A stretch of 58,606 bases of DNA, taken from positions 1 to 58,606 of the forward strand of contig NZ_VUNS01000031.1 of the NCBI RefSeq assembly GCF_009695545.1, in the 5' to 3' direction. Source of the stretch: Victivallis lenta. GTDB taxonomy: Bacteria > Verrucomicrobiota > Lentisphaeria > Victivallales > Victivallaceae. Shown in pieces: positions 12,192 to 47,503 of the stretch. The notes under the pieces were generated by a model. It made no database searches, was not told the origin of the DNA, and worked only from the letters and a program-made list of their open reading frames with translations. The stretch's first letter is position 1, and every line of letters starts with the position of its first letter. The position numbers and the translations under genes were made by a program.

Positions 12192-12869
<678 letters not shown>

Positions 12870-24440: not shown

Positions 24441-24444
<4 letters not shown>
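22012..24444 (+). CDS. Large protein of unknown family, probable glycosidase-like
   Basis: An 810-residue protein without a signal peptide and without a family I can name. Features are an N-terminal alpha/beta region ([29 protein letters not shown]), a middle part with [14 protein letters not shown] and [20 protein letters not shown] that looks like a barrel enzyme, and a C-terminal half with beta-rich segments ([29 protein letters not shown]). Asp/Glu-rich loops such as HDPWF and TCDDSYGG are plausible catalytic sites, but no pair can be assigned. GGAG at 22001-22004 fixes the ATG at 22012; two in-frame starts upstream lack a ribosome site. It overlaps the pseudopilin start by four bases (ATGA) and shares its operon with a secreted GH-A enzyme. 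Confidence 0.75.
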
Positions 24445-25199
<755 letters not shown>

Positions 25200-31944: not shown

Positions 31945-33117
31945 TCAGGCAGGAAGCCCGAGGGATGAACCGTGGTCAGGGGATTGGTGTTCCATTACGA
32001 CGATTTTGAAGTCGTAATTCTGTTCGGTCAGCCGTTCGAGCAGGCTGCGCTTTCCGCAAAGCCGCTGCAGGAACGGAACGGGACGGCCGGAGGGCCCCAT
32101 GATGATATGTCCGACCCGGTGTTCCTTTGCAAACTGCAGAATCGTCTGAACGATATCATCGCTTTTATAAGTGAAAATCGTGGCCCCGAGCTGGCGCGCG
32201 AGTTCCAGCGTATTGTTCAAATGGCGCTGGGTGGCCGCATCGATGCGGACCGCACTCTCCCGGGAAGTCTGGACGTAAAGCACATACCAGTTCCGGCTGA
32301 GCCTGCCGGCGATGCGGGAAGCGTAACGCAGCAATGCATCGGCGTTCGGACTGCGGGAGCTCATGCACACCATGACCTGATCCGGGCTGACCGCCTCTTC
32401 TTTGCCTTCGGGGACCGTTTTCTCCCGGAAGCGCGTATCGAGCTGCGCCGCCAGTTCGCGCAGCGTCAGCTCTCTTAGCTGCTGCAAGTTGCTGTCTTTG
32501 AAAAAGTTCGCCAGAGCCGAATCGATCCGCTCTTCCGGATAGACCCGGCCGGTGCGGATGCGCTGCTGCAGATCCGCAACCGAAACGTCGACATTGACCA
32601 CCTCATCCGCACCGGTCACGACCCTGTCGGGAATCCGCTCCTTGACTTTGACTCCGGTCGACTTCTCGACGATTTCGTAGAGGCTTTCGAGATGCTGGAC
32701 GTTCAGGGTCGAAATCACATGGATTCCTGCATCGAGAATATCCTCGACATCCTGGTAACGTTTGGCGTTTCTGGAGCCCGGCGCATTGGTATGAGCAAGT
32801 TCGTCAACCAATACGGCCTGCGGATTCCGCCTGATGATGGCAGGAACATCCATCTCGGTGATCTTGATTCCGCGATGCACGATTTCGCGCCGCGGAATCA
32901 TCTCCAGGTTCCCGATGCATTCGGCGGTCTCCTTCCGGCCGTGGGTCTCCAACAATCCGATCACAACATCCATATGCTCAATATCTCTGAGGCGGCATGC
33001 CTCCTTGAGCATCTGGGTGGTTTTGCCGACTCCGGCGCAATACCCGAGATAGATCTTGAGCTTTCCGCGCCGGGAGCTGCGGATCATTTCGAGAAAGTTG
33101 TCTGCACGTGTATTCAT
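31945..33117 (-). CDS. kdpD: Short KdpD: N-terminal sensor domain plus USP domain, no kinase
   Basis: A 390-residue protein equal to the cytoplasmic N-terminal part of KdpD. The KdpD domain has Walker A GYCAGVGKTTQML, AVLVDELAHTNAPGSRNAKR and DILDAGIHVISTLNVQHLES. A universal-stress-like domain follows from about residue 250 (MVCMSSRSPNADALLRYASR, HIIMGPSGRPVPFL). Transmembrane segments, H-box and ATPase are absent, so it cannot phosphorylate. It is the last gene of the kdp operon. It may sense K+/turgor state or c-di-AMP through the USP part, as described for KdpD in other bacteria, and work with the separate histidine kinase at the front of the operon. Confidence 0.9.
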   Translation of the reverse strand: MNTRADNFLEMIRSSRRGKLKIYLGYCAGVGKTTQMLKEACRLRDIEHMDVVIGLLETHGRKETAECIGNLEMIPRREIVHRGIKITEMDVPAIIRRNPQAVLVDELAHTNAPGSRNAKRYQDVEDILDAGIHVISTLNVQHLESLYEIVEKSTGVKVKERIPDRVVTGADEVVNVDVSVADLQQRIRTGRVYPEERIDSALANFFKDSNLQQLRELTLRELAAQLDTRFREKTVPEGKEEAVSPDQVMVCMSSRSPNADALLRYASRIAGRLSRNWYVLYVQTSRESAVRIDAATQRHLNNTLELARQLGATIFTYKSDDIVQTILQFAKEHRVGHIIMGPSGRPVPFLQRLCGKRSLLERLTEQNYDFKIVVMEHQSPDHGSSLGLPA

Positions 33118-33193: not shown

Positions 33194-33757
33194 TTATTTC
33201 ATTTCATCGAGCGCCAGATTCAGCATCAGGACGTTCACGATCGGTTCGTTGCGCATGATGCCGCCGGGATATTCGACCTTGGATTCCACCACCTTCATGA
33301 GTTCGGCTTCGCTCATGCCGCGCGCTTTCGCGACGCGGGGCGCCTGAAACTTCGCGGCGGCCAGCGTGATATGCGGGTCGAGCCCGCTGCCGGAGGCGGT
33401 CACCATGTCGGCGGGAATCGGATTTTCGGCGGTGGCGCCATACTTTTTTATGAGCTCCTGAGCCCGCTCGGTGATCTTCGGCGAGGTCGGGGTCAGGTTG
33501 CTGCCGACCGCTCCGGCACCGTTGTAGTCCGCCGCCGACGGACGGCTGTGGAAGTAGTTATCCCGGGTGAACTCCTGCGCCACCTGGCGGCTGCCGACAT
33601 ACTGGCCGGCGGCGTTCTTCACCAGAGAACCATTGGCGGAGTTCGGTACAAAGACCTGTGCAATGGTCCAGATGACCAGCGTATAGACCACGCAGCAGAG
33701 CAGGATGCTCAGCACGGCGGTGCGTATCGCTCCAAAAATATCGGTTGTCAGCTTCAT
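33194..33757 (-). CDS. kdpC: K+-transporting ATPase subunit C
   Basis: A 187-residue single-span membrane protein of the KdpFABC pump. One N-terminal helix (VLSILLCCVVYTLVIWTIAQ) is followed by a periplasmic domain with the family blocks GSLVKNAAGQYVGSRQVAQE, YFHSRPSAADYNGAGAVGSN, ASGSGLDPHIT and ARVAKARG-like QAPRVAKARGMSEAEL. The length is normal. AAGGAGA precedes the ATG, and it starts 18 bases after kdpB. Confidence 0.95.
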   Translation of the reverse strand: MKLTTDIFGAIRTAVLSILLCCVVYTLVIWTIAQVFVPNSANGSLVKNAAGQYVGSRQVAQEFTRDNYFHSRPSAADYNGAGAVGSNLTPTSPKITERAQELIKKYGATAENPIPADMVTASGSGLDPHITLAAAKFQAPRVAKARGMSEAELMKVVESKVEYPGGIMRNEPIVNVLMLNLALDEMK

Positions 33758-33775
33758 GATTTTCTCCTTTGCTTA

Positions 33776-35830
33776 TCAGAACAGCCCGGTTGCGGCCAGC
33801 ACCATATCGATCAGTTTGATGCCGATGAAGGGGGCGATCACCCCGCCGAGGCCGTAGATGAACAGATTGCGCGCCAGCAGCGCATCCGCGCCCATCGGCC
33901 GGTACTTCACGCCTTTGAGCGCGATCGGGATCAGCAGCGGGATGATGACCGCGTTGAAGATCAGCGCCGACAGGATCGCGCTCGACGGGGTCGCAAGGTG
34001 CATGATGTTCAGCACCGCCAGTTCCGGGATCGCCAGCAGGAAGATCGCCGGAATGATTGCGAAGTATTTCGCCACGTCGTTCGCAATCGAAAAAGTGGTC
34101 AGTGCGCCGCGGGTCATCAGCAGCTGCTTGCCGATCTCGATGACTTCGATCAGCTTGGTCGGGTCGCTGTCGAGATCGACCATGTTGCCGGCCTCCTTCG
34201 CCGCCTGCGTGCCGGAGTTCATCGCAATGCCGATATCGGCCTGCGCGAGCGCCGGAGCGTCGTTCGTGCCGTCGCCCATCATCGCGACCAGGCGGCCTCT
34301 GGCCTGCTCCTGGCGGATATAGGCGAGCTTGTCCTCCGGTTTGGCTTCGGCGATGAAGTCGTCTACGCCCGCTTCTTCGGCGATCGCCTTCGCGGTCAGC
34401 GGGTTGTCGCCGGTGACCATCACCACGCGCAGCCCCATCGCCCGCAGACGTTCGAAGCGGTCCCTGATGCCGGTTTTAAGGATATCGGACAACGCCACCA
34501 CGCCGAGAATCCGGTCGTTAACCGAAACAACGATCGGTGTGCAGCCTTTCCGGGCGACTTTCGTCACCATCTCCTCAATATCGGCCGGAACTTTGGTTTT
34601 CGCCTTCTTCGCGGCCTGAATCACGGCATCGGAAGCACCTTTGCGATAGTGAGTTCCATCCGTCGCATCGGTTCCGCTCATGCGGGTCTGGGCGGTGAAC
34701 TCAATCACGTCGCAGCTTCCGTCGTCTTTGGCGACCTTGCCGTTGAGTTCGCGTTCCGCCAGAGTGATGATCGAACGGCCTTCCGGAGTCTGATCGCCGA
34801 ACGAGGCACGCACCGCGGCGTCGATCAGCTTTTCGCGATCGACTCCCTTCACCGGATAAAACTCCGAGGCGAGGCGGTCGCCGACGGTGATCGTGCCGGT
34901 CTTGTCCAGCAGCAGCGTATCGATGTCGCCGGCCAGTTCCACGGCCTTGCCGCTCTTGGCCAGCACGTTGGCCGCCAGCGCCCGGTCCATGCCCGCGATG
35001 CCGATCGCGGCGAGCAGCGCGCCGATCGTGGTCGGGATCAGGCAGACCAGCAGCGAAATCAGGGTCGGCAGCGGAATGGTCACGTCGAAATATTTCGCCA
35101 TCGGGTAGAGCGTGGCCGTGACCAGCAGGAAGCCCAGCGTCAGCCCGGCCAGCGTGACGGTCAGCGCCAGCTCGTTCGGAGTCTTCTGGCGGACCGCGCC
35201 CTCGACCAGCGCGATCATCCGGTCGAGGAAGGATTCCCCGGCTCCGGCGGTGATCTTCACCTTGATCCGGTCGGAGAGCACGCGGGTGCCGCCGGTCACG
35301 CCGGAGCGGTCGCCGCCGGCCTCGCGCACCACCGGCGCGGATTCGCCGGTGATCGCGGATTCGTCGATGCTGGCGACGCCTTCGATCACTTCGCCGTCGC
35401 TCGGAATAATCTCGCCCGCGCTGACCACGACGATATCGCCGGTTTTCAGCAGCGAGGAGCTGACCGCTTCAATCCTGCCTGAACCGCCCAGACGATTGGC
35501 CATCGTCTGTCTGCGAGTGTTTTTCAGGCTGTCGGCCTGCGCCTTGCCGCGCGCTTCGGCGAGCGCCTCCGCGAAATTCGCGAAGAGGACGGTCAGCCAG
35601 AGCACGGCTGTCACCAGGGTTGTATAGAGGATATTGGCATGGCCGCCGCAGATGTCGATGATCCAGACCAGCGTGGTCAGCGCCGCGCCGATTTCGGTGA
35701 CGAACATCACCGGATTGCGCGCCATCGTCCGGGGATTCAGCATCGCGAACGACTGGATCAGGGCGGTTTTGACCAGCCCTTTGTCGAAGAGCGTCGCCTT
35801 CCGGCTTTCTTTTCTGTTCATGTGATTCAT
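33776..35830 (-). CDS. kdpB: K+-transporting P-type ATPase subunit B
   Basis: A 684-residue catalytic subunit, a P1A-type ATPase in the inner membrane. The phosphorylated Asp is in [15 protein letters not shown] (near residue 308). TGES (in [13 protein letters not shown]) is the dephosphorylation loop, and [20 protein letters not shown] and [20 protein letters not shown] are the hinge motifs. An AGGAG lies eight bases before the ATG at 35830; an ATG nine bases on is an alternative. It works with KdpA (K+ channel subunit), KdpC and KdpF encoded around it for high-affinity K+ uptake. Confidence 0.97.
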
Positions 35831-35848
35831 GATCTTAACTCCTGAGAA

Positions 35849-37537
35849 TCAGTGTACAAGGGTGGTGAGATATTCGGCGATCGGCCCGAGGACCGCCACC
35901 GGCAGAAAGAGCAGAGCGCCGACGAAGACCACGGTGCCGCCGATCACCACGCCGAAGAGCGCGGTATCGGTCTTGAGCGTTCCCACCGTTTCGGGGACCT
36001 CCTTCTTCGCAAAGAGCGAGCCGCAGATCGCCAGCTGGAAGATGATCGGGATGAACCGGCCGATCAGCATCACCAGCCCGCAGGCGATGTTCCACGGCAC
36101 GGTGTTGTCGCCCAGCCCCTCGAAGCCGGAGCCGTTGTTGGCCGAAGACGAGGTGAATTCATAGAGCATCTCGGTGAAGCCGTGGAAGCCCGGATTCAGC
36201 ACGGTGTCGCGTCCCCACGACGGGATCAGGCAGAAGATCGCCATGCCGCCGAGGATGCACAGCGGGTGCATCAGCAGCGCCGGGAGCGCGTACTTCATCT
36301 CGCGGGTCTCGACCTTCTTGCCGAGGTATTCCGGCGTCCGCCCGACCATCATGCCGCAGATGAATACGCCGATGATGATGTAGGTGAAGAGTCCGAGGAA
36401 GCCGACGCCGATGCCGCCGAAAGTGATGTTGAACCACATGCCTGCCAGCGGGATCAGCCCGGTCAGCGGATTCAGGCTGCAGTGCATCGAGTTCACCGAA
36501 CCGTTGCTGGTGCAAGTCGTGAACACCGCCCACAGCGGGCTTGCGCCCGCGCCGAGACGCAGCTCCTTGCCTTCGAGGTTGGAGGCTTCGGCGACCGGCA
36601 GGTCATGCAGCGCGACGGCCGGTTCGCTTTCAAAGGTGATCGCGCAGCCGAGCTTTACGAGGCAGAGCACCGTCATCACCGCGAAGATCACCAGCGCGTG
36701 CTTTCTGTGCTTCGTGATCATGCCGAACATCCAGACGCAGCCCATCGGGATGATCACCAGGCTGATGCACTCGATGATGTTGCTGTAAAAGCCGACGTTT
36801 TCGAGCGGATGGGTCGAGTTCGGCCCGAAGAAGCCGCCGCCGTTGGTGCCGAGCTGCTTGATGATCACTTCGACCGCCACCGGGCCGCGGGCGATGGTCT
36901 GCACCGCGCCTTCCAGCGTATGGACCACCGCCGCGCCGTCGAAGGTCATCGGCAGCCCGCAGAGGACCAGCAGCGTCGCGCCGATCGCGGCGACCGGCAG
37001 GATCACCAGAAACGTGGCGCGGCACATATCCAGATAGAAGTTGTTCCGTTCCCGGGAGCCGCCGAGCCAGCGGGAAGCGGCGGTCACCGCCGCCAGCCCG
37101 GTCGCCGCCGACACGAACTGCAGCCACATGATGCCGAAGAGCTGCGAGAAGTACGACAGCGTGCTTTCGCCGGAGTAGTGCTGCAGATTGGTGTTGGTCA
37201 CGAACGAGGTGACGGTGTTGAAGATCAGGCTGCCCTCGATCGCCTTCTGCCCGTCCGGGTTCAGCGGCAGGAACTGCTGGAACGCCAGCACGCCGGTCAC
37301 GACCACGAACATGATCGTGTTGAAGATCAGAAGGCTGACCGTATACTGTTTCCAGTTCTGGTCGGCTTCGGCGGCGCGCCCGATCACTTTGTGGAAGAAG
37401 CCCTCGACTTTCTTATGCGTGGGCCCCATGAGGCCGGGGGCCGGGCACATCATCTTGAACATCCATTTCCCGAGCGGCAGCGAAATCAGGATCGACAGCC
37501 CGAGAACGGCAATTGCAAGCAGAAAAGAGTAAATCAT
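35849..37537 (-). CDS. kdpA: K+-transporting ATPase subunit A (K+-selective channel subunit)
   Basis: A 562-residue polytopic membrane protein. K+ selectivity-filter-like loops are visible: TSFVTNTNLQHYSG, LGTNGGGFFGPNSTHP, TTCTSNGSVNSMH and SSSANNGSGFEGLGDNT. About ten hydrophobic helices are distributed along the chain, as usual for KdpA. It begins eight bases after the kdpF stop with a GGTGAG ribosome site. As channel subunit it passes K+ to KdpB for energised import under K+ limitation or osmotic upshift. Confidence 0.97.
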   Translation of the reverse strand: MIYSFLLAIAVLGLSILISLPLGKWMFKMMCPAPGLMGPTHKKVEGFFHKVIGRAAEADQNWKQYTVSLLIFNTIMFVVVTGVLAFQQFLPLNPDGQKAIEGSLIFNTVTSFVTNTNLQHYSGESTLSYFSQLFGIMWLQFVSAATGLAAVTAASRWLGGSRERNNFYLDMCRATFLVILPVAAIGATLLVLCGLPMTFDGAAVVHTLEGAVQTIARGPVAVEVIIKQLGTNGGGFFGPNSTHPLENVGFYSNIIECISLVIIPMGCVWMFGMITKHRKHALVIFAVMTVLCLVKLGCAITFESEPAVALHDLPVAEASNLEGKELRLGAGASPLWAVFTTCTSNGSVNSMHCSLNPLTGLIPLAGMWFNITFGGIGVGFLGLFTYIIIGVFICGMMVGRTPEYLGKKVETREMKYALPALLMHPLCILGGMAIFCLIPSWGRDTVLNPGFHGFTEMLYEFTSSSANNGSGFEGLGDNTVPWNIACGLVMLIGRFIPIIFQLAICGSLFAKKEVPETVGTLKTDTALFGVVIGGTVVFVGALLFLPVAVLGPIAEYLTTLVH

Positions 37538-37651: not shown

Positions 37652-37735
37652 TCACTTTAAAGAATCGCAGAATTGGGTCAGGGCGAACATGCCGGCGAAA
37701 AACAGCAGTCCGAGGATAAAACACCCGATTACCAT
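37652..37735 (-). CDS. 27-residue membrane microprotein preceding kdpF
   Basis: A short open frame encodes one hydrophobic helix, MVIGCFILGLLFFAGMFALT, then a tail ending CDSLK. AAGGAG lies nine bases before its ATG, which overlaps the end of the histidine kinase gene by seven bases. A comparable unnamed small protein ending in C-x-x-L precedes kdpF in some other kdp operons (recalled from family knowledge, not checked here). It is probably a small accessory of the Kdp complex. No function can be read from sequence. Confidence 0.6.
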   Translation of the reverse strand: MVIGCFILGLLFFAGMFALTQFCDSLK

Positions 37736-39582
37736 ACAACAGAACTCCTTTCCGGTTGATTGTCCTGCTTCAGCGGCAAAGTGAAATGGAACGTGCTTCC
37801 ATTGCCTTCGGAGCTTTCCACCTCGACCGTTCCTCCCAAAGCAGTGATAATTTCTTTTACGATCGATAAACCGAGACCGACGCCGGAGGATGCTTCCTGT
37901 CCGGGGGCCCGGTAAAATTGTTCGAAAAGATGGCTTCTGACCTCTTCCGGCATGCCGCTGCCGGTATCCTGAACCGCAAACCTCATGAGATTTCCCCGGG
38001 CTTCCGCTTTCAGGGTGATGGTTCCGCCCGCCGGCGTAAAGCGGACGGCATTGTCGATCAGGTTGTCGAACACGTAATTGATCCGGTTGACCGGAACCGT
38101 CACCTCCGGAAGGCCGGGTGCCGCCTCAATCTCCATTTTGATATCCTTGTCGAGGCAGACGGAGCGGAAACGCTCCTTTGCATCCTGCAATAAAATTTCC
38201 GGCCGGCGCGGTTCAAGCTTGAAATGCTTCTGACTGGAGGCCCGATTGAGATCGAGCAGGTCGTCGATGATCGCCGTCAGCCGTTCGCTGTCCTCGCGCA
38301 TCGACATGACCAGATCAAGCTGTTCGGCAGAGAGTTTGCCGATCTTCTCCTCCAGCAGAAGATAAATCGACATCTGCAGTGAGGTCAGCGGCGTTTTCAA
38401 CTGGTGGGAAACCGTCGCCAATACGCTGCGCTTCAGCTCCTGCTGTTCATGGGCCAGCGTAACATCCTTCAGGATAATCGCAACCCCGGAGAGCTGTTCG
38501 GGCGGAGCGCCGGCCGGGATCGGCAACGCCACAGGCTGAAAGAAATATTCCCGGTTCTCGATGAAGAACTGGACCTCTTTCCTGTCCTGCGGCGTCGAAA
38601 CCAGCCCGGTCTGCAAAACGTGACTGTAAAGCTCGGAAAGCCACGCAATCCGCAGATCGCTGAGCTTTACACCTGCTTTCAGCCCGAAACAGCGGTCGGC
38701 GCTCTGCGTCGTGATCTCCACCTTGCCGCTCCGCGCATCGATCACGGCAATCGGGGTGGGAAGCTCTTTGAAAACGTCCTGATTGGTCCGTTCGGAACGC
38801 TCCAGCCGCATCCGTTCGGAGCGACGGGTTTCGCGCAGTGCGGTCGTCATTGAGTTGAATGCGCGCGAAAGCTGTCCGATTTCGTCATTGGAATTCGTTT
38901 CCAGTACGATGTCGAGGTTGCCGCCGGCGATTTCCGTTGTCAGCTCAGTCAGCTTCCGGATCGGTTTTTCAATCCAGTGCCGCAGCAGCAGCATCTGCAG
39001 CACCGCGAAAACAGCGCAGCCGAACAGAATCAGCAATACCCGGTTGTAAAATCGGGCAGCCTCTTCGCGCGCATGATTATTGGCGGCAATCATGTTCTTC
39101 TGGTTCAGTTCCAGCACTTCTCCGGAGAGCTGCCGCAATTGAACCGCCAGCGGATAGATTTCCGTGCCGTACAGCTTTTGACACTCCGCCGGAGCAAGTC
39201 CCGGAGCGGAAACTTTGCGAATACTGTCGGAGTAGTTTACCAGAAGCGCGGCAGTCCTGTCGGCCAGCTCGCGCTCACCCGCAACAGTGATGTTATTTAA
39301 TTCCGCTTTCCAGATTTTATTCAGATTCGCAAGCTGTCCGTCAAAAAAGGCGGATGTCACGGCAGAATCCCCGGCGAACCGGCGCAGAAAACCCTCGTTG
39401 ATTTTCTCCAGAGTCTCGTTAAAACGCTGGCAAAGAATGACACTCTGATAATTTTCACGCAGAATGACATCGATGGAATTGCCCAGTTTCCTGACTTGCA
39501 CGATCATAACGGCGCCGATCACAAAGATCAACGCCAGCAGGCCAAGCAAACTGACCAGAAATTTACGTTTGATATCCAACAT
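37729..39582 (-). CDS. HAMP-domain membrane histidine kinase of the kdp operon
   Basis: A 617-residue two-span sensor kinase. The first helix is FLVSLLGLLALIFVIGAVMI, an extracytoplasmic domain covers about residues 30-180, and a second helix near 185-205 is followed by HAMP (EKPIRKLTELTTEIAGGNLD). A PAS-like domain spans about 270-370. The H-box is LATVSHQLKTPLTSLQ (His near 391), and the ATPase has NLIDNAVRF, DTGSGMPEEV and GVGLGLSIVKE. The ATG at 39582 has AAAGG upstream. A longer frame to 39630 would place a sigma-54 promoter inside the gene. It leads the kdpFABCD transcription unit and is the likely partner of the NtrC-type regulator just upstream. Confidence 0.92.
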   Translation of the reverse strand: MLDIKRKFLVSLLGLLALIFVIGAVMIVQVRKLGNSIDVILRENYQSVILCQRFNETLEKINEGFLRRFAGDSAVTSAFFDGQLANLNKIWKAELNNITVAGERELADRTAALLVNYSDSIRKVSAPGLAPAECQKLYGTEIYPLAVQLRQLSGEVLELNQKNMIAANNHAREEAARFYNRVLLILFGCAVFAVLQMLLLRHWIEKPIRKLTELTTEIAGGNLDIVLETNSNDEIGQLSRAFNSMTTALRETRRSERMRLERSERTNQDVFKELPTPIAVIDARSGKVEITTQSADRCFGLKAGVKLSDLRIAWLSELYSHVLQTGLVSTPQDRKEVQFFIENREYFFQPVALPIPAGAPPEQLSGVAIILKDVTLAHEQQELKRSVLATVSHQLKTPLTSLQMSIYLLLEEKIGKLSAEQLDLVMSMREDSERLTAIIDDLLDLNRASSQKHFKLEPRRPEILLQDAKERFRSVCLDKDIKMEIEAAPGLPEVTVPVNRINYVFDNLIDNAVRFTPAGGTITLKAEARGNLMRFAVQDTGSGMPEEVRSHLFEQFYRAPGQEASSGVGLGLSIVKEIITALGGTVEVESSEGNGSTFHFTLPLKQDNQPERSSVVW

Positions 39583-39619
39583 ATTCACGCCTTTGGTTGC
39601 AAAAATATCACTTGTATAA

Positions 39620-39635
39620 GCAAGACGCATGCCAA
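39620..39635 (-). promoter_or_regulatory. Sigma-54 core promoter for the kinase/kdp operon
   Basis: The minus strand reads TTGGCATGCGTCTTGC: GG and GC separated by exactly ten bases, close to the consensus TGGCAC-N5-TTGC. Transcription would begin about 12 bases downstream, leaving a leader of roughly 26 bases before the kinase start at 39582. Confidence 0.8.
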
Positions 39636-39688
39636 CTGCCCGATGGCTCTTGTACGCTCAAATCATTCCGGACATAAGCAAACTCGTA

Positions 39689-39701
39689 TTGCATTTTGCA
39701 A
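39689..39701. promoter_or_regulatory. Enhancer dyad TTGCA-N3-TGCAA upstream of the kdp sigma-54 promoter
   Basis: The perfect dyad TTGCATTTTGCAA is centred about 75 bases upstream of the GC element. A further half site, AAAATGCAAT, is at 39724-39733. The distance fits an NtrC-type activator that loops to sigma-54 polymerase. The same dyad is found at the other two sigma-54 promoters of this region. Confidence 0.7.
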
Positions 39702-39734
39702 AAGAACACGTGCTGAAAATAATAAAATGCAATG

Positions 39735-41072
39735 TCAATTATTGATTCCATAAGCCTTGCGTTTCCTCCATAAAGTTGCCTGATTGATTCCAAGGATCGA
39801 AGCTGCTTCCACGAGAGAAGAGGAGGTTGTCAGAACCTCACGGATATAATTTTCTTCGAGTTGTTCCAACGTAAGCCTGCCGTTCGGCGACACCTCGCCT
39901 TTTAAATGTTGCAGGGCATCCGGCAGATGGTGTAACAGCACGGTATCACTGTCAGTAAGAATGACGCCCCGCTCGACTGCATTGCGCAATTCCCGCAAAT
40001 TTCCCGGCCACGGATAGGCTTTAATCGCCTCCGATGCCTCAGGAGAAAATCCCCGGATCAATTTGCGGTTCGCCGCCGCGAAGAATCTCAGCATATTCTC
40101 CGCCAGCATTTCAAGATCCTCCGGCCGTTCCCGCAATGGCGGAATTTCCAATTGAAACACGTTCAGGCGATAAAAGAGATCTTCGCGAAAAGCTCCGGTT
40201 TTGACTGCTTCTTCCAGATTGCGGTTGGTCGCGGCAATCAGCCGGACATCGGCCTGCCGCGGCGTGGGATCACCGACCCGCTCATACTCATGATCCTGCA
40301 GGAAGCGCAGAAGCTGCGGCTGAATCGAAGCCGTCAGGTCGCCGATTTCATCCAGAAAGAGCGTTCCGTGGTCGCAGCCGGCAATGCGGCCGGGATTCTC
40401 ACGGACGGCTCCGGTAAAGGCTCCGCGCGCGTGACCGAAAAGCTCGCTGGCCAGCAGTTCCGGCTGCAGCGTCGGACACGAAACGATTCCGAGCGGCTGG
40501 GCTGCCCGCGGGCTCCAGCCGTGGATTGCTTTCGCCAGAATGGTTTTGCCGGTTCCGCTCTCGCCCCGGATCAGGACGGCGGCTTCGCTCGCCGCCACGT
40601 GGCGGGCCATCTCCAGCGTCCGCTGCATTTTCAGGTTGCTGGAGACGAACACTCCGTCGGGACGCAGGCTTTTCAGGTCTTCCTCCAGGCGGTCCAGGCG
40701 GCGCTCGATGCAGAGCGCCTTTTCCACCTTTTCAAGAACAAGCCCGAGCTTTTCCAATGCAAACGGCTTTTCGATGTAATCGAAGGCACCGCGCTTCATC
40801 GCCTCCACGGCGGTATCCACAGAGGAGTAGGCCGTCATGACCACAATTTTCAGCCAGGGGGAATCTGCGAGTAATTTCGGCAGCAGTTCCAGCCCGCTCT
40901 CCGGCCCGAGCCGCAAATCAAGGAAAGCAAGATCGAACTTGTGAAGCCGGTTCTCCGCAAACCCTTCCCGGGCGGAACCGGCCTGCCGGACCTGCTGGCC
41001 ATGCGATTTCAGCCAGAGCGTCAGGGACTTCCGGATGTTGGCTTCATCATCGATCACAAGGATGTTCAACAT
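39735..41072 (-). CDS. NtrC-family sigma-54-dependent response regulator
   Basis: A 445-residue enhancer-binding protein. The receiver domain has VIDDEANIRKSL, phosphoacceptor Asp near residue 52 in LAFLDLRLG, and VVMTAYSSVD. The AAA+ domain has Walker A RGESGTGKTILA, the sigma-54 contact loop RGAFTGAVRE, FLDEIGDL and ATNRNLEEAV. A C-terminal Fis-type helix-turn-helix (ILGINQATLWRKRKAYGI) binds DNA. It starts 16 bases after the betaine-binding-protein gene, so it belongs to that operon and to the loop it probably controls. It replaces the usual OmpR-type KdpE next to kdp. Confidence 0.95.
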   Translation of the reverse strand: MLNILVIDDEANIRKSLTLWLKSHGQQVRQAGSAREGFAENRLHKFDLAFLDLRLGPESGLELLPKLLADSPWLKIVVMTAYSSVDTAVEAMKRGAFDYIEKPFALEKLGLVLEKVEKALCIERRLDRLEEDLKSLRPDGVFVSSNLKMQRTLEMARHVAASEAAVLIRGESGTGKTILAKAIHGWSPRAAQPLGIVSCPTLQPELLASELFGHARGAFTGAVRENPGRIAGCDHGTLFLDEIGDLTASIQPQLLRFLQDHEYERVGDPTPRQADVRLIAATNRNLEEAVKTGAFREDLFYRLNVFQLEIPPLRERPEDLEMLAENMLRFFAAANRKLIRGFSPEASEAIKAYPWPGNLRELRNAVERGVILTDSDTVLLHHLPDALQHLKGEVSPNGRLTLEQLEENYIREVLTTSSSLVEAASILGINQATLWRKRKAYGINN

Positions 41073-41088
41073 TTTCGCCGTTATCCTT

Positions 41089-42003
41089 CTATTTGTCTTC
41101 TCCCGCCAGGCCATAAACCTCAATCGCCTTTTCCGCCAGCAGCAGAATTCCCTGGCCCGGTTCATTGCCGATAATCTTCCCCTCAAATTCATTCCGGTAT
41201 TTTTTCAAATCCGCAATGGTTTCCACCGGCGCATATTCGGGGACTGCAATTCCCATCATCGCTCCCGGCAGATTCACGCCGAGATCGACAACTCTGTCGC
41301 GGATCCGGGCAAACTCGTTTTTATGGTAGTTCGGCAGCCACACCGTCACCATAACATCCTGAGTCCCGTTGGCCAGCGCTTCGAACGCAATCGGAATTGT
41401 GGTCGAAACGTTGGAGACTTCGCATTTCAGGTGTTCTTCCAGCAGGATTTTCAGCATTGCATTGGTCGCCAGTTCGTTATGAAAGCCGATATCGACCATT
41501 TTGATCTTCGCTCCGGGCTGCGGGCGCACGCCTTTCAGGAATGCTGCCTGCAATTCCGGGTTTCGTTTCAGCCACTCCCGGGCGCCTTTGCCGTAGTCGC
41601 CGTCGCTTTCATAACAGATCAGCGACAGGGAGTCAAGGTCAGTCGTTTTCCATTTGAATTGCCGGAAAAATTTCGCAAGTTCCGGATAATCCTTATCAAA
41701 CCCTTTCCTGACAATTGTATGGACGTTCTCCGCCTCTCCAAATACTTTTTCCGGGTCTTTCAGGTATTTGATCGGCAGCTCGGCATTCATCCAGTGAGGA
41801 CTCCACGCGGTAATGGCGGCATACCGATCATTTTTAATCGCATAAGCCATCTCTTCGATCATGGCGGGAGTTGTCGAGGTGATGACTCGGAATCCCTTGC
41901 CGCCGGCCGAATCCTTTCCGTTTTTCAGATTGAAAAAAATCAGGAAAGCCGCGCAGACCGCCAATATGATCGTATTTTCAATTCTTTTTCTCGTCCATTT
42001 CAT
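41089..42003 (-). CDS. opuAC: Glycine-betaine-type ABC transporter substrate-binding protein
   Basis: A 304-residue OpuAC-family binding protein with an N-terminal membrane anchor (TIILAVCAAFLIFF) and no lipobox. Betaine-pocket segments are visible: ITAWSPHWMN, EAENVHTIVRKGF and VTVWLPNYHKN. The segment order is unusual. The WSPHW lobe comes first, the IGFHNELATN...VPEYAP lobe second, and the piece resembling IIGxDPGxGI, which begins Bacillus OpuAC, is at the very C-terminus (KIIGNEPGQGI). It overlaps the permease stop (ATGA). It delivers compatible solutes such as glycine or proline betaine to the permease. Confidence 0.88.
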   Translation of the reverse strand: MKWTRKRIENTIILAVCAAFLIFFNLKNGKDSAGGKGFRVITSTTPAMIEEMAYAIKNDRYAAITAWSPHWMNAELPIKYLKDPEKVFGEAENVHTIVRKGFDKDYPELAKFFRQFKWKTTDLDSLSLICYESDGDYGKGAREWLKRNPELQAAFLKGVRPQPGAKIKMVDIGFHNELATNAMLKILLEEHLKCEVSNVSTTIPIAFEALANGTQDVMVTVWLPNYHKNEFARIRDRVVDLGVNLPGAMMGIAVPEYAPVETIADLKKYRNEFEGKIIGNEPGQGILLLAEKAIEVYGLAGEDK

Positions 42004-42845
42004 TTTTCATCCTCCTGTTTGAAGGCTGTTCCCGTCGCCTGCAGCGTCCGGTCCAGAATGATGGCGATCACGACAATCACAATACCGCCTTCAAAAGCGA
42101 CTCCCTTCTCTCCATTGCAAATTGCGCCCCACACCACGCTGCCGACGCCCTGCGCACCGACCAGCGAAGCGATGACGACCATCGACAGCGCGAGCATGAC
42201 CGTCTGGTTCAGGCCCGCCCGGATCGACGTGAGCGCAGTCGGCAGCTCAAGGTCGAACAGCCGGTTCATCGGCGTCGCCCCGAATGCTTCGGAACACTCC
42301 AGCAGATCCTTCGGCGTGTTTTCGATGCCGAGCACGGTCATGCGCACGATCGGCGGCAGAGCGAACACCACGGTCGCAAAAACGCCGGAGGTGTTGCTGA
42401 TCGAAAAGAACGCGATCGCCGGCACCAGATAGACATAGGCCGGCATCGTCTGCATGATGTCCAGCAGCGGCAGCACGATTTTCTTGAGCCATTTGCTGAA
42501 CGTCATCAATACCGCCAGCGGCAGGCCGATTGCGACTGCGGCCGCCGTGCAGATGATCACCAGCGCCATCGTTTCCATCGCCGACTCCCAGAGGCCGAGC
42601 ATGATGACCAGCATCATGCCGCAGGCGGAGCCGAACGTCAGCAGCTTGCGCCGGCCGCTGACGACGAAGATCACTGCGCAGAAAATCAGCAGCATCGCCC
42701 ACTCCGGCGGAGCGCAGAGTATGTTTTTAAGCCCGTCCACAACAGAATCGATACTGCGTGAACACCAGCGCGTGAAATCTGCGCAATGGACAACCGCCCA
42801 GTCGAGGAAACGTTCAAAATATTGTCCGATCGGTAGTCTGATCAT
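42000..42845 (-). CDS. opuAB: Glycine-betaine-type ABC transporter permease
   Basis: A 281-residue inner-membrane protein of the ProW/OpuAB family. An N-terminal amphipathic stretch (FERFLDWAVVHC) and about seven helices follow, with the cytoplasmic coupling loop ECSEAFGATPMNRLFDLELP (the EAA motif region) and NQTVMLALSMVVIASLVGAQ typical of betaine permeases. It overlaps the ATPase stop by four bases and the binding-protein start by four bases, so the three genes are translationally coupled. Confidence 0.93.
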   Translation of the reverse strand: MIRLPIGQYFERFLDWAVVHCADFTRWCSRSIDSVVDGLKNILCAPPEWAMLLIFCAVIFVVSGRRKLLTFGSACGMMLVIMLGLWESAMETMALVIICTAAAVAIGLPLAVLMTFSKWLKKIVLPLLDIMQTMPAYVYLVPAIAFFSISNTSGVFATVVFALPPIVRMTVLGIENTPKDLLECSEAFGATPMNRLFDLELPTALTSIRAGLNQTVMLALSMVVIASLVGAQGVGSVVWGAICNGEKGVAFEGGIVIVVIAIILDRTLQATGTAFKQEDEK

Positions 42846-44068
42846 TTGGATTCTCCAGTTGTACCGTTGTAGGAAGCAAGGCAGGCCAGCAGCGCGCCGC
42901 TGGTGATGACGCCGAGAAAACGGCGTTCATCGTCCACGACCGCGATCGGCGCGGTCGATTCGCCCATCTGCATAACCACCTCTTTCAGCGGAGCGGAACG
43001 GTTGATGGTCTTGATGTTCATATCCATCATCGATTGCGCGGTCACATTGGGTTCACCCATGTGCTCGCGCACTTTCCGCGCCCAGACCAGGCCGTAGATC
43101 ACCCCCTGGTCGTTGGTCGCGAACAGCGACGACAGGCCGCTTTCGCGGATTTTATGCAGCATGGTCTGCGGGCCGTCGCTCAGGTGCAGATAATCGTAGA
43201 CCGGCTTCATGATCGAACCGGCGGTGATGACCTTGGTTTTGTCCGCCGCGTTCACAAACTTCGCGACATAATCGTTGGCCGGATGGCTCAGAATCTCCTC
43301 CATCGTCCCGAGCTGGGCGATCTCGCCATCCTTCATGATCAGCACGCGGTCTGCGAGCCGGATCGCTTCGTCGAGGTCGTGGGTGATGAAGATCACGGTC
43401 TTGCCGAGCTTTTTCTGAAGCGCCCGGATCTCATTCTGCATTTCGCGCCGGATCAGCGGATCGAGCGCCGAAAGCGCCTCGTCCATGATGATGATCTCCG
43501 GGTCCGCCGCCAGTGCGCGGGCGATGCCGACGCGCTGGCGCATCCCGCCGGAGAGCTGGTCCGGATAACGGTCCGCGTAATCGGCCAGCCCGACGAGCGC
43601 CAGCACTTCGCGCGCTCTGGCGCGCCGGGTTTCACGCGGTACTCCGGCGATCTTCAGCGCATAGGCTGCATTGTCCAGCACCGTCAAATGCGGGTAGAGT
43701 GCGAACTGCTGGAACACCATTCCGATCCGGCGGCGGCGCAAGTCACGCAACTGCCTTCTGCTGAGTGCGGTAACTTCCGTGTCGTCGATGAAAATCTTTC
43801 CGTCCGACGGCTCGATCAGCCGGTTGATGGTGCGGATCAGCGTGCTTTTGCCGCTGCCGGAAAGTCCCATCACCACAAAAAGTTCGCCGCGGCGGATGGT
43901 AAAATTGATGTCGTGAACACCGACACTGCACTGGGTTGCTTTATATACTTCTTCCCGGGTCTTGCCCGCTTTGAACAGTTCGGCGGCTTTCCTGTGATGC
44001 CGCCCGAAGATTTTGGTCAGCCCTTCTATCCTGACCAGATCTTCCGTTTTATCCAACTGATCCATCAT
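42842..44068 (-). CDS. opuAA: Glycine-betaine-type ABC transporter ATPase with CBS domains
   Basis: A 408-residue ATPase of the ProV/OpuAA family. The long N-terminal lead (AELFKAGKTREEVYKATQC) precedes Walker A GLSGSGKST. The signature is LSGGMRQRVGIARAL and Walker B IIIMDEALSALDP. Two C-terminal CBS domains (about residues 285-400) could sense ionic strength or a nucleotide, as shown for other OpuA systems. GGGAGG precedes two adjacent ATGs, 44068 and 44065. It is the first gene of the sigma-54 operon opuAA-AB-AC-regulator. Confidence 0.93.
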   Translation of the reverse strand: MMDQLDKTEDLVRIEGLTKIFGRHHRKAAELFKAGKTREEVYKATQCSVGVHDINFTIRRGELFVVMGLSGSGKSTLIRTINRLIEPSDGKIFIDDTEVTALSRRQLRDLRRRRIGMVFQQFALYPHLTVLDNAAYALKIAGVPRETRRARAREVLALVGLADYADRYPDQLSGGMRQRVGIARALAADPEIIIMDEALSALDPLIRREMQNEIRALQKKLGKTVIFITHDLDEAIRLADRVLIMKDGEIAQLGTMEEILSHPANDYVAKFVNAADKTKVITAGSIMKPVYDYLHLSDGPQTMLHKIRESGLSSLFATNDQGVIYGLVWARKVREHMGEPNVTAQSMMDMNIKTINRSAPLKEVVMQMGESTAPIAVVDDERRFLGVITSGALLACLASYNGTTGESK

Positions 44069-44131
44069 AAGTCCTCCCTGACGGCTGCATTAACTTACCG
44101 ATTCCATATCAAATTGTTCGTAACAGCAGAA

Positions 44132-44147
44132 GCAAAATACATGCCAA
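44132..44147 (-). promoter_or_regulatory. Sigma-54 core promoter for the betaine-transporter/regulator operon
   Basis: The minus strand reads TTGGCATGTATTTTGC, again GG-N10-GC and sharing TTGGCAT with the other two promoters. It lies 64 bases ahead of the ATPase start, giving a leader of about 50 bases. Confidence 0.8.
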
Positions 44148-44230
44148 TACCGAAATCGGCGGAAAAAGCAGAGAGCGGAAAGAGTTTTTGCAATTCGATA
44201 ATTCAAAATGCAATATTCTGATTTTAAAAA

Positions 44231-44243
44231 TTGCATTTTGCAA
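44231..44243. promoter_or_regulatory. Enhancer dyad TTGCA-N3-TGCAA upstream of the betaine-transporter promoter
   Basis: TTGCATTTTGCAA is identical to the dyad at the kdp promoter and centred about 105 bases upstream of the GC element. Additional half sites TTGCA (44188-44192) and TGCAA (44209-44213) lie between. Because the regulator gene is in this operon, autoregulation is expected. Confidence 0.7.
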
Positions 44244-44261: not shown

Positions 44262-45200
44262 TTATTGGGGATGCCGTCCGGCGGACCGCCGCCCCTTTGG
44301 AGGGGAAGCCATCCGCAATCCGGCCAGCACAAGAATAATTCCGAGAATGTTATAGAACGACAAGTGTTCCCCCAGAAAAAGCCAGGCGCCGAGCAGCGTG
44401 AATACCGGAGAGAGATTCTGCAGCAACCCCAGTTTCCAGAGCGACACCCGGGGCATCGCCTCCGACCAGGCGATAAAAGCCGCTGCCGTGGGAACCAGAC
44501 CCAGAAGAACAATCGCTCCCCATGCGTCCCAGCCGGCCGGAATGATGAGCTGTGAATGGAAAATAAGAAGAAACGGAATTACCATGACAGCAGACGCCAG
44601 CTCGCAATACCCCATCAGGACAACGCGATTCGGGGCCGCCATCAGTTTCCGGCCGATTGCGGAGCCGATCACCCACGACACGGCGGAACCGATCAAGGCA
44701 AGCTGCCCCAGCCAGCTGGCGAAACCGTAATGGAATCCGCGCATGGAAATCATATTAAGGACAAACATGCATCCCAGCAGTCCGCATCCCACAGCCAGAA
44801 TTTCACGGCGTTCCGTGGGATGGCGACGGATCAGTTTCCACACGATTGCGATAATCGCCGGACCGGATTCCAGAAACAGTGCGGCTGTGATTGCGCTCGC
44901 GGTCTGCTGGCCGATGAAAAAAAGCAGGCTCATCAGGAACAGCATGAAAAAAGCCACCGCAAGCATCTGCATGAATTCACGGAGCGAACGAAACCGCAGC
45001 GACTCCTTCCGCCACGCGGCATATCCGAGAATAGCCGCCGAACCGATCAGAAAGCGGTAAAACACCAGGGAAACCGGATCGACTCTGGCGTCGCCGCCGA
45101 GCAGAAAGCGCGCAACAAGGAACGCACTGCTCCAGCATACAATCGCCAGCAAGGCCAGCCGGAAACCGACCAGTTCGGCATTCTTGGAAAGCAAAGTCAT
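44262..45200 (-). CDS. EamA/DMT-superfamily transporter
   Basis: A 312-residue protein with about ten membrane helices in two EamA repeats, beginning GFRLALLAIVCWSSAFLVAR and ending near FTLLGAWLFLGEHLSFYNIL. PVSLVFYRFLIGSAAILG and AAFIAWSEAMPRVSLWKLGL are typical. Such carriers move amino acids or small metabolites, usually outward. It follows the opine-synthase homologue and a hypothetical gene in the same direction with a 57-base gap, so it may export their product or be independent. The ribosome site is weak. Confidence 0.82.
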   Translation of the reverse strand: MTLLSKNAELVGFRLALLAIVCWSSAFLVARFLLGGDARVDPVSLVFYRFLIGSAAILGYAAWRKESLRFRSLREFMQMLAVAFFMLFLMSLLFFIGQQTASAITAALFLESGPAIIAIVWKLIRRHPTERREILAVGCGLLGCMFVLNMISMRGFHYGFASWLGQLALIGSAVSWVIGSAIGRKLMAAPNRVVLMGYCELASAVMVIPFLLIFHSQLIIPAGWDAWGAIVLLGLVPTAAAFIAWSEAMPRVSLWKLGLLQNLSPVFTLLGAWLFLGEHLSFYNILGIILVLAGLRMASPPKGRRSAGRHPQ

Positions 45201-45257: not shown

Positions 45258-45851
45258 TCAGTAAAGAGAGAAAATCCCGGGAGGAACGCCCCGCCAGTTG
45301 TTCGTCACACAATGTACGGGAACCGGCGTCCGGGGCGACAGGGCGGAGATCAGGCGCTGCCGCCTCTGCCGCCAGTGTTCCTTCGTCGCCGGCAGGGCGC
45401 AGACGGCCGCGGCAAATTCCGGGCTGTACAAAGCTTCCGCCAACTGCGCGTAGCGGAAAAACTCAGCCATCGGGCGGTCCAGGCGGGCATTGCGCAGGAT
45501 GACCTGCCGCAGACGTTCCCTGTGGGATTCCGGCAATACCGCGCTGCGCAGTGCTTTGCAGATTTTCAGCTTGATGTATCCGGCCTCCACGCAACAGGGA
45601 TCTGCTTCCAGAAAACGCACGGCTTCTTCGATCGCGTCCAGTTCTCCGGCCTGAATCCGCTGATATAGAGAAGGCGTATGTGCGGGCGCGCTCCCGTTGA
45701 AATAATCGAAAAAACGGAACGCCTCCTGAAAAGCGCGTGCCGCTTTCTGCCGCAGAACCTTGTCACTGTCGGGCTTTGAAAGGCGGCGGATGGCTCCATA
45801 ATGCCGTCCCACCAATTTTTCCTGGTGCTTGATTTCCGCAATCGTGATCAT
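45258..45851 (-). CDS. Hypothetical protein, second gene of the opine-synthase unit
   Basis: A 197-residue protein I do not recognise. It is mainly alpha-helical with no signal peptide or membrane helix: IKHQEKLVGRHYGAIRRLSK, AARAFQEAFRFFDYF, LDAIEEAVRFLEADPCCVEA, FFRYAQLAEALYSPEFAA. Cys-Cys near the middle could bind metal but lacks partners. GGAGG eight bases before the ATG at 45851 fixes the start; longer frames run into the upstream gene. It lies 31 bases after the CEOS homologue and should be co-transcribed with it from the sigma-54 promoter. Confidence 0.65.
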   Translation of the reverse strand: MITIAEIKHQEKLVGRHYGAIRRLSKPDSDKVLRQKAARAFQEAFRFFDYFNGSAPAHTPSLYQRIQAGELDAIEEAVRFLEADPCCVEAGYIKLKICKALRSAVLPESHRERLRQVILRNARLDRPMAEFFRYAQLAEALYSPEFAAAVCALPATKEHWRQRRQRLISALSPRTPVPVHCVTNNWRGVPPGIFSLY

Positions 45852-45882
45852 GAATTCAACCTCCATAAAAGACAGTGGTTCG

Positions 45883-46917
45883 TTAAGCCAATGAGACATT
45901 TTCCAGTATTTCAACCGGTCGCCCGGAATTCCGTCGCATCTTGTGCCGGGCAATTTTCATCGGTTTGAAACTGGTTCGGCAATACCAGTCACGAAGATCA
46001 AGAAAACGCCGGACATCCGGCATGAAAAAGTAATGACTCAGAATCGGACTCAGATAACTGCTTACCGTCTGAAAATAGAAAGACGGCGAATTCGGCACTT
46101 CATAAAAGCAATGCCCATTCTCCCAGTACACCGGATTCAGCAGCGAAGTGTAATGGGTTCCTTCGATCGTGCCGCCGGCATCCGCGGAAGCGTCGATAAA
46201 CAAACAGCCCGGCTTGGCGCGCTTCAGTTCGTCACGGGAAATTACATGATTGCTGTGCGGAAAAGTCTCGATACCATTGATTACAATATCAAATGAGGGC
46301 AATTCTTCGAGGAATTCGCTTATCGTTTTGCGGTAGAACATGCGGATATCGGAAGTGAATTTGCTGATTGCCCAATAGCCGCCCTGGGCAACATTACCGG
46401 AGGAGAGCACGGCAACCCGGGTGGCCGGTTCCGGCAGCTTCCCCCACGAAAGCAGTGCATGCTGCACGGAAGCCACTCCCGCGTAAAAACTGTTTTTCCA
46501 GAGAAAATCACGGGGGATGAAGGGGATCTTACAGGTCTGTCCGTTGAAAGTGACGGTCGGAGAGATATTGTCGATATCCACAACCGTGAGTGCAAGTTCC
46601 TTTGCAATCTGCATGAATTCTGCGGAAGGGGCCTCATGGGGATGGGTCCAGCCGATAATCAGCTGTCCTTTGCGAAGATGGCGGTAGTCCTCCGGCTGGA
46701 TCAGTTTCAACGAAAAAATCGCATCGCAACTGGAAAACACTTCCTGCCGTGTGGCAATTTGAGCTCCTCGTCGTCGATATTCATCGGGGGGAATGCCCAG
46801 GGTATCACCGAATTTTTCATCGATTACGAGATGATTCTCAGATGTTCGCATATCCTGCGGGAGCAAGGCGACCCGCCTTTCTCCCGGAAAATCCGGCCTG
46901 ATCAATCCCAATCGCAT
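45883..46917 (-). CDS. ceo: N5-(carboxyethyl)ornithine synthase homologue
   Basis: A 344-residue NADPH-dependent opine-type dehydrogenase related to alanine dehydrogenase. The Lactococcus enzyme condenses pyruvate with ornithine (or lysine). Matching blocks are LIRPDFPGERRVALLP, with the conserved Arg pair, FSLKLIQPEDYRHLRKGQ, IIGWTHPHE, KNSFYAGVASVQHALL, VAVLSSGNVAQGG as the nucleotide loop, RMFYRKTISEF, DIVINGIE and IDASADAGGTIEGTHYTS. It is about 30 residues longer than the Lactococcus protein at the C-terminus. AAGGAG lies eight bases before the ATG at 46917. A sigma-54 promoter and two enhancer dyads of the same type as at kdp and opuA lie just upstream, suggesting osmotic control. Confidence 0.85.
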   Translation of the reverse strand: MRLGLIRPDFPGERRVALLPQDMRTSENHLVIDEKFGDTLGIPPDEYRRRGAQIATRQEVFSSCDAIFSLKLIQPEDYRHLRKGQLIIGWTHPHEAPSAEFMQIAKELALTVVDIDNISPTVTFNGQTCKIPFIPRDFLWKNSFYAGVASVQHALLSWGKLPEPATRVAVLSSGNVAQGGYWAISKFTSDIRMFYRKTISEFLEELPSFDIVINGIETFPHSNHVISRDELKRAKPGCLFIDASADAGGTIEGTHYTSLLNPVYWENGHCFYEVPNSPSFYFQTVSSYLSPILSHYFFMPDVRRFLDLRDWYCRTSFKPMKIARHKMRRNSGRPVEILENVSLA

Positions 46918-46969
46918 ATCTTTGGTCTCCTTCTGTCGTTGAAAGATGAGAGCTTGAAATTCTTTATCA

Positions 46970-46985
46970 GCAAAAATAATGCCAA
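46970..46985 (-). promoter_or_regulatory. Sigma-54 core promoter for the opine-synthase unit
   Basis: The minus strand reads TTGGCATTATTTTTGC, GG-N10-GC, the third copy of the TTGGCAT-N5-TTGC pattern. It is 53 bases ahead of the CEOS start. Confidence 0.78.
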
Positions 46986-47050: not shown

Positions 47051-47094
47051 TTGCAAAGTGCAATTTTGAAGAATCTGAAAATTGTACTTTGCAA
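47051..47094. promoter_or_regulatory. Two enhancer dyads upstream of the opine-synthase promoter
   Basis: TTGCAAAGTGCAA (47051-47063) is a perfect TTGCA-N3-TGCAA dyad. TTGTACTTTGCAA (47082-47094) matches with one change. Their centres are 31 bases apart (about three helical turns) and lie about 87 and 118 bases upstream of the GC element, suited to cooperative binding of an NtrC-type activator. Confidence 0.7.
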
Positions 47095-47503
47095 TCAGAA
47101 AAATCTCTTCCGGGAACCGGGATGAGCCGGATCATTCACGGAACGGCAGACTCCGGCCTGAAAATCATGCGGCAGGGATTATAAAAAGATTGCAGGAACC
47201 CATGCAGGCTGCAGCCGTAACACGCGAACGACGGCAATATTACCGATCCAGATGGTTCCCGATGAGATTGCCGCGGCAATTGCCGCCATTCATACCAATT
47301 ATCCAAACCCAATTATTTCTTGCCCGGAACAGGAACTGGGTGATGATATGGAGAGCCTGCCGTGGAAACAATGGAAAAATACCCATGCCAAGGTTGACGG
47401 CTTCCGGTATAAGCGGGATCAGCAACTTGCAATCGGACAAACTCAATAAACAATGAGATACCCATGATAATCATAAAAACAAGCTTCACATCCCACGAAA
47501 AAA
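47095..47503. other. Gene-free stretch upstream of the opine-synthase unit
   Basis: About 400 bases with only short overlapping frames on both strands (for example 47252-47449 plus and 47240-47446 minus). None has family motifs or good ribosome sites. Apart from its enhancer-bearing edge I see nothing definite in it. Confidence 0.4.

Follow-up and report, generated by a model that had tools for sequence, protein, structure and literature searches.

A CEOS-family opine synthase gene with the sigma-54 promoter architecture of the neighboring opu and kdp operons in Victivallis lenta, and its possible link to osmolyte synthesis

Results

The window analyzed here, a 58,606-nucleotide stretch of the Victivallis lenta genome (contig NZ_VUNS01000031.1), carries on its minus strand, at 45883..46917, a gene for a 344-residue protein with a low-confidence C-terminal tail (about residues 317-344). 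The open reading frame starts at an ATG downstream of a good ribosome-binding site, AAGGAGA. The first-pass annotation had taken the product for an N5-(carboxyethyl)ornithine synthase (CEOS) homologue, and this identification was borne out: it contains the blocks PGERRV, WTHP, SSGNVAQGG and AGGTIEGTHYTS, and its similarity to CEOS from Bacteroidota, Clostridium and lactic acid bacteria extends over the full length at 43-52% (46% identity to the Lactococcus enzyme across 307 aa, 43-44% identity to Clostridium CEOS-like proteins and up to 52% to Bacteroidota CEOS-like proteins), whereas identity to alanine dehydrogenases is about 23%. Pfam and PDB matches place the protein in the alanine dehydrogenase/transhydrogenase superfamily, and an AlphaFold model (pLDDT 82) has the corresponding fold; the genome yielded no other AlaDH_PNT_N protein. 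In a phylogenetic tree the protein groups with CEOS (fork support 98/99) and, on a long branch (0.95), with Bacteroidota CEOS at moderate support (90/76). Sequence comparison makes its membership of the CEOS family clear.

Individual residues were compared in an alignment of the window protein with 19 other CEOS, 8 distant relatives and 5 alanine dehydrogenases. The residues that we take to be responsible for pyruvate handling in alanine dehydrogenase, R15, K71, H92, D246 and N276, are all retained, as are the CEOS-type W90-T-H-P and Y-R-K-T segments. After beta-2, R192, R196 and K197 are as in the CEOS rows and not as in alanine dehydrogenase; they mark the place where the phosphate of NADPH would bind, and would fit the use of that cofactor. 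The GSG loop after His92 (95-97), K108, Y282 and R/K283, conserved in all or nearly all other CEOS compared, are replaced in the window protein by EAP, L, F and Q respectively; conservation of these positions is family-wide, but is not known to define the family or its activity. With near-invariant positions around the active site altered, it is uncertain which amine the enzyme uses, and ornithine is not assured; the divergence weighs against assuming ornithine, but not against CEOS family membership.

Downstream of the CEOS gene and on the same strand lie, in the order first described, an open reading frame for a helical 197-residue protein (orf197; 45258..45851) and an EamA/DMT carrier gene (44262..45200), with gaps of 31 bases between CEOS and orf197 and 57 bases between orf197 and the carrier. 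No family could be assigned to orf197, which has no match in Pfam or NCBIfam, is about 30% identical to hypothetical proteins from unrelated contexts, and yielded an all-helical single-sequence model of low confidence (pLDDT 56). It was considered as a partner of CEOS and ruled out, as its homologues occur in unrelated contexts and none lies near any other CEOS. The carrier scores above the PF00892 cut-off; among NCBIfam models it comes closest to carriers of amino acids or amines and to exporters, each match falling under its cut-off, and this resemblance to exporters keeps an export role alive and would be odd for a retained osmolyte. An EamA neighbor was seen at no other CEOS locus tested, and the three-gene order, proposed earlier as a point to check for conservation, is conserved nowhere among the loci that could be checked.

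The adjacent minus-strand genes encode a ProV-type ATPase with a CBS domain (42842..44068; TIGR01186 above cut-off), a ProW/ChoW-type permease (42000..42845; PF00528 above cut-off, choline/betaine permease models below cut-off), an OpuAC-type substrate-binding protein (41089..42003; PF04069) and an NtrC-type sigma-54 response regulator (39735..41071; Response_reg, Sigma54_activat and HTH_8). The ATG of the regulator gene lies 17 bp past the opu stop, and the gene is apparently co-transcribed with opu. The importer labeled opuA earlier is of the ProV/ChoV type, and its operon ends with a response-regulator gene. These genes are followed, on the same strand, by a sensor histidine kinase gene (37729..39582; HAMP-HisKA-HATPase by domain search, start set from the promoter position), a small kdpF-like open reading frame, kdpA, kdpB and kdpC (33194..37537; TIGR00680, TIGR01497 and TIGR00681/NF001454 above cut-off), and a gene for a KdpD-like sensor without a kinase domain (31945..33117; PF02702 above cut-off, NF038185 below). 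The Kdp components KdpA, KdpB and KdpC and a KdpD-type sensor domain are all present, and the NtrC-type regulator stands in place of a KdpE-type one.

The strict sigma-54 promoter TTGGCAT-N5-TTGCT occurs behind paired TTGCA-NNN-TGCAA-type activator sites at three loci within one 8-kb stretch, in agreement with the first-pass claim that CEOS has its promoter and enhancer type in common with kdp and opu. At the CEOS operon, a strict promoter motif (46969..46985, minus strand) is accompanied by a proximal site, TTGCA-NNN-TGCAA (47051..47063), and a distal site with one mismatch, TTGCAAAGTACAA (47082..47094), 31 bp from the proximal one. The opu promoter (44131..44147, minus strand) has the site TTGCAAAATGCAA at 44231..44243 and a weaker site, TTGCATTTTGAAT, starting at 44213; the promoter of the histidine kinase-kdpFABC-KdpD' genes (39619..39635, minus strand) has TTGCAAAATGCAA at 39689..39701 and a weaker site starting at 39732, 31 bp away. 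The promoter attributed to kdp precedes the histidine-kinase gene and not kdpA. Each pair consists of one perfect and one imperfect site, with a spacing of 31 bases at both CEOS and kdp and of 30 at opu. The features of a sigma-54 regulon were found together, namely GG/GC -24/-12 promoters, paired upstream sites and an encoded AAA+ response regulator. Three site-plus-promoter combinations occur in the window, compared with none in any of 200 Markov-shuffled windows. Upstream of the CEOS operon, on the plus strand, a short open frame (47250-47456) resembles a small-gene remnant.

Across the 5.5-Mb genome there are 12 strict sigma-54 sites and 9 perfect palindromes, and only one further combination of site and promoter, at a paralogous Kdp sensor pair (locus C1; L057 4154-8837). 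There, the combination stands ahead of a second histidine kinase and KdpD-like gene, a second NtrC-type regulator gene precedes it, and no kdpABC was seen beside these genes. A gap-pattern search of the genome found the same combinations except the one at opu, where the spacing, 83, was beyond the limit of that search. The other strict sigma-54 sites, at a glutamine synthetase-type gene, a large synthase subunit, groEL and others (genes named by eye), lack activator sites. One candidate, a promoter with an activator-like site at C9:130142 (L093 5143-8485), was rejected; its site is imperfect, and a small open reading frame and an rtcB-type RNA ligase lie downstream.

The history of these operons was examined in related genomes. 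In a second genome of the genus (G007), opu and kdp are adjacent, the kdpA product is 99% identical, and both operons have sigma-54 promoters with degenerate activator sites; no CEOS was found in that genome, and neither orf197 nor an EamA gene lies beside its opu-kdp genes. The contig concerned (C17; L150/L151) is without the 3.3-kb regulator-kinase segment that stands between opu and kdp in the window (37752-41107), and the sigma-54 promoters are kept. Inverted copies of a short dispersed element, at 12771-12855 and 24440-24540 of the window, are about 80% identical to one on the same G007 contig. In a genome from another genus of the family (G011; L152), the palindrome and a sigma-54 promoter accompany a regulator, a kinase, kdpABC and a KdpD-like gene. 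We infer that the NtrC-type response regulator binds the TTGCA-NNN-TGCAA sites, given its proximity to them and the conservation with both the C1 paralogue and G011. Only 2 of the 388 genomes in the phylum sample gave CEOS-level matches; one is the window genome, and the other has a distant CEOS subfamily only. Since opu and kdp of G007 have sigma-54 promoters in a genome that lacks CEOS, the K+/osmotic regulon probably predates the CEOS gene. The comparison with G007 and G011 and the rarity of CEOS in the phylum make the CEOS operon look like a late addition to this older regulon, and the gene was apparently acquired horizontally.

Among Clostridiaceae, close CEOS were found in 11 of 207 genomes. 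At 4 of the 11 (C. cadaveris, SUG470, G568 and G567) the gene is divergent from a neighboring BusR-like gene encoding GntR and TrkA_C domains, while the other 7 lack such a neighbor. The best PDB match of the C. cadaveris regulator is BusR (7b5t, E 7e-39), and the regulators at the other three loci share 60-95% identity with the C. cadaveris protein; as the four paired CEOS also form one clade, the pairing is probably a single, lasting event. BusR, responding to c-di-AMP and ionic strength, is known to repress the betaine importer BusA (PMC8517857, PMC10243994). Inspection by eye of the four Clostridium CEOS promoters gave no evident match to GAC-N22-GTC, the operator published for BusR. An inverted repeat, ACAA(C/G)T-N22-AGTTGT, spans the -35/-10 region of the CEOS promoter near the BusR-like gene (L025 7864-7900; also L027, L131 and L134), and its ACAACT-N22-AGTTGT form is exact at two loci and has one mismatch at two; this repeat has the spacing of the BusR operator but a different motif, and is only suggestive. 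The BusR-like partner constitutes a second, independent link of CEOS to osmotic control.

Other CEOS genes have different surroundings. On two Lactococcus plasmids, near-identical CEOS genes lie downstream of a Gls24/AmaP stress operon. In two Bacteroidales genomes (L024 8995-11455 and L029 8995-11455) CEOS is followed by a 386-aa gene and a radical SAM-looking protein, with the order kept. A distinct CEOS-like subfamily (L100 of genome G218, and L139-L145), at about 30% identity and with W-I/V-H-A and HTPS motifs, may possibly represent an uncharacterised opine synthase; the G218 gene is flanked by genes for an ATP-grasp-like protein and a glycosyltransferase.

Discussion

To our knowledge, no physiological role of CEOS has been agreed on in the decades since the enzyme became known, and a literature search on CEOS physiology found no paper giving one. 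Osmotic or K+ control of the window gene, as suggested in the first-pass annotation, receives strong support at the sequence level from the genome-wide promoter architecture and from the BusR-like partner in Clostridium. Of the two roles offered with it, that of a compatible solute is plausible and appears to be the best single explanation, but the divergent surroundings of the active site make ornithine a less than assured substrate, and the exporter-like carrier speaks against simple accumulation. The alternative role of K+ counter-ion is disfavored, because N5-(carboxyethyl)ornithine, with two carboxylates and two protonated amines, has a net charge of zero at neutral pH and cannot balance K+.

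The following mechanism would accommodate these observations. An NADPH-dependent reductase of the CEOS family would have been placed under an existing sigma-54 Kdp-type two-component system, in which a split sensor, formed by the KdpD-like protein and a separate histidine kinase, may report K+ shortage or hyperosmotic stress. Acting on the paired TTGCA-NNN-TGCAA sites, the NtrC-type response regulator would fire three operons at once, supplying K+ through kdpFABC and betaine-like solutes through the ProVWX-type importer, with CEOS-orf197-EamA as the third. The CEOS enzyme would then join pyruvate to the side-chain amine of ornithine, or of a related amine, to give a net-neutral and very soluble zwitterion, an osmolyte built from central metabolites, and the EamA carrier might tune the osmolyte pool or export its surplus; any function of orf197 is likewise conjectural. 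A cationic diamino acid is neutralized by carboxyethylation just as it is by acetylation in the solutes N-acetylornithine and N-acetyl-lysine. Taken as a whole, the reading in which a horizontally gained CEOS under sigma-54 Kdp control makes a net-neutral osmolyte is, in our estimation, evenly poised between right and wrong.

The same co-regulation with kdpFABC that the promoter architecture suggests, and the EamA gene apparently in the CEOS operon, could fit charge-balance export, in which K+ would enter through Kdp while CEOS neutralized ornithine or lysine to an opine that EamA would expel. E. coli expels putrescine upon K+ entry after osmotic upshift, a parallel in favor of this explanation; however, no EamA gene adjoins the other CEOS loci tested, and we consider such export by this putative exporter unlikely. 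A poorer prospect is that the protein, as a dehydrogenase of the same superfamily, acts on another amine or on ammonia (yielding alanine), its product serving as an osmolyte or nitrogen store: the diverged GSG loop, K108, Y282 and R/K283, the long branch and the status of sole AlaDH_PNT_N protein would agree with this, but the protein is far closer to CEOS than to alanine dehydrogenases (43-52% against about 23%) and keeps the W90-T-H-P and Y-R-K-T segments. That a mobile opine-synthase gene merely captured a stress promoter beside opu-kdp while serving an unrelated process, such as a signaling or nutrient opine, is very unlikely, for although CEOS is patchily distributed, partly plasmid-borne and missing from 386 of the 388 genomes of the phylum sample, its promoter here has two well-formed activator sites spaced as at the other targets, and a BusR-like partner accompanies CEOS in another phylum.

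The osmolyte reading can also be put more broadly: opines may form an unrecognised class of bacterial osmolytes, with CEOS separately placed under K+/osmotic regulators in different phyla, by sigma-54 Kdp control here and by a BusR-like regulator, probably sensing c-di-AMP, in Clostridium. We advance this generalization tentatively, as somewhat less likely to hold than to fail. The CEOS enzyme family, Kdp systems, a response regulator of such a kdp layout in Desulfovibrio vulgaris, and BusR are already known; the literature search found no report linking CEOS to osmotic or K+ control. With its two separate links to potassium/osmotic regulators, CEOS can now be tested directly for a role. If the interpretation is true, opine osmolytes would answer what CEOS is for, an opine would join the charge-neutralized diamino acids used as osmolytes, and an NtrC-type Kdp system would command solute import and, probably, solute synthesis together.

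Comparison with known systems delimits these proposals. The alanine dehydrogenase of M. tuberculosis (2vhx) has the fold and pyruvate-site residues of the window CEOS, but identity is about 20% and the residues after beta-2 of the nucleotide-binding domain differ. Lactococcus CEOS (NZ_CP087601.1, NZ_AP025521.1) resembles the window protein over its full length and has the same pyruvate-site and NADP-loop residues, whereas the window protein has a C-terminal extension of about 35 residues and the changed GSG loop, K108, Y282 and R/K283, and its gene has a sigma-54 promoter and no neighbors in common. The BusR systems of Lactococcus and Streptococcus resemble the Clostridium CEOS loci through the BusR-like GntR-RCK_C gene, but no BusR-like gene was seen beside the window CEOS. 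In Desulfovibrio vulgaris, DVU3334 regulates its own kdpFABC operon, and two proteins, a K+-sensor/UspA protein and a distinct kinase, stand for a split KdpD (PMC3333781). The window has this same layout, with a response regulator predicted to control its own kdpFABC operon and a split KdpD; the likeness is one of layout, and to it the window regulon adds a betaine-type importer and an opine synthase.
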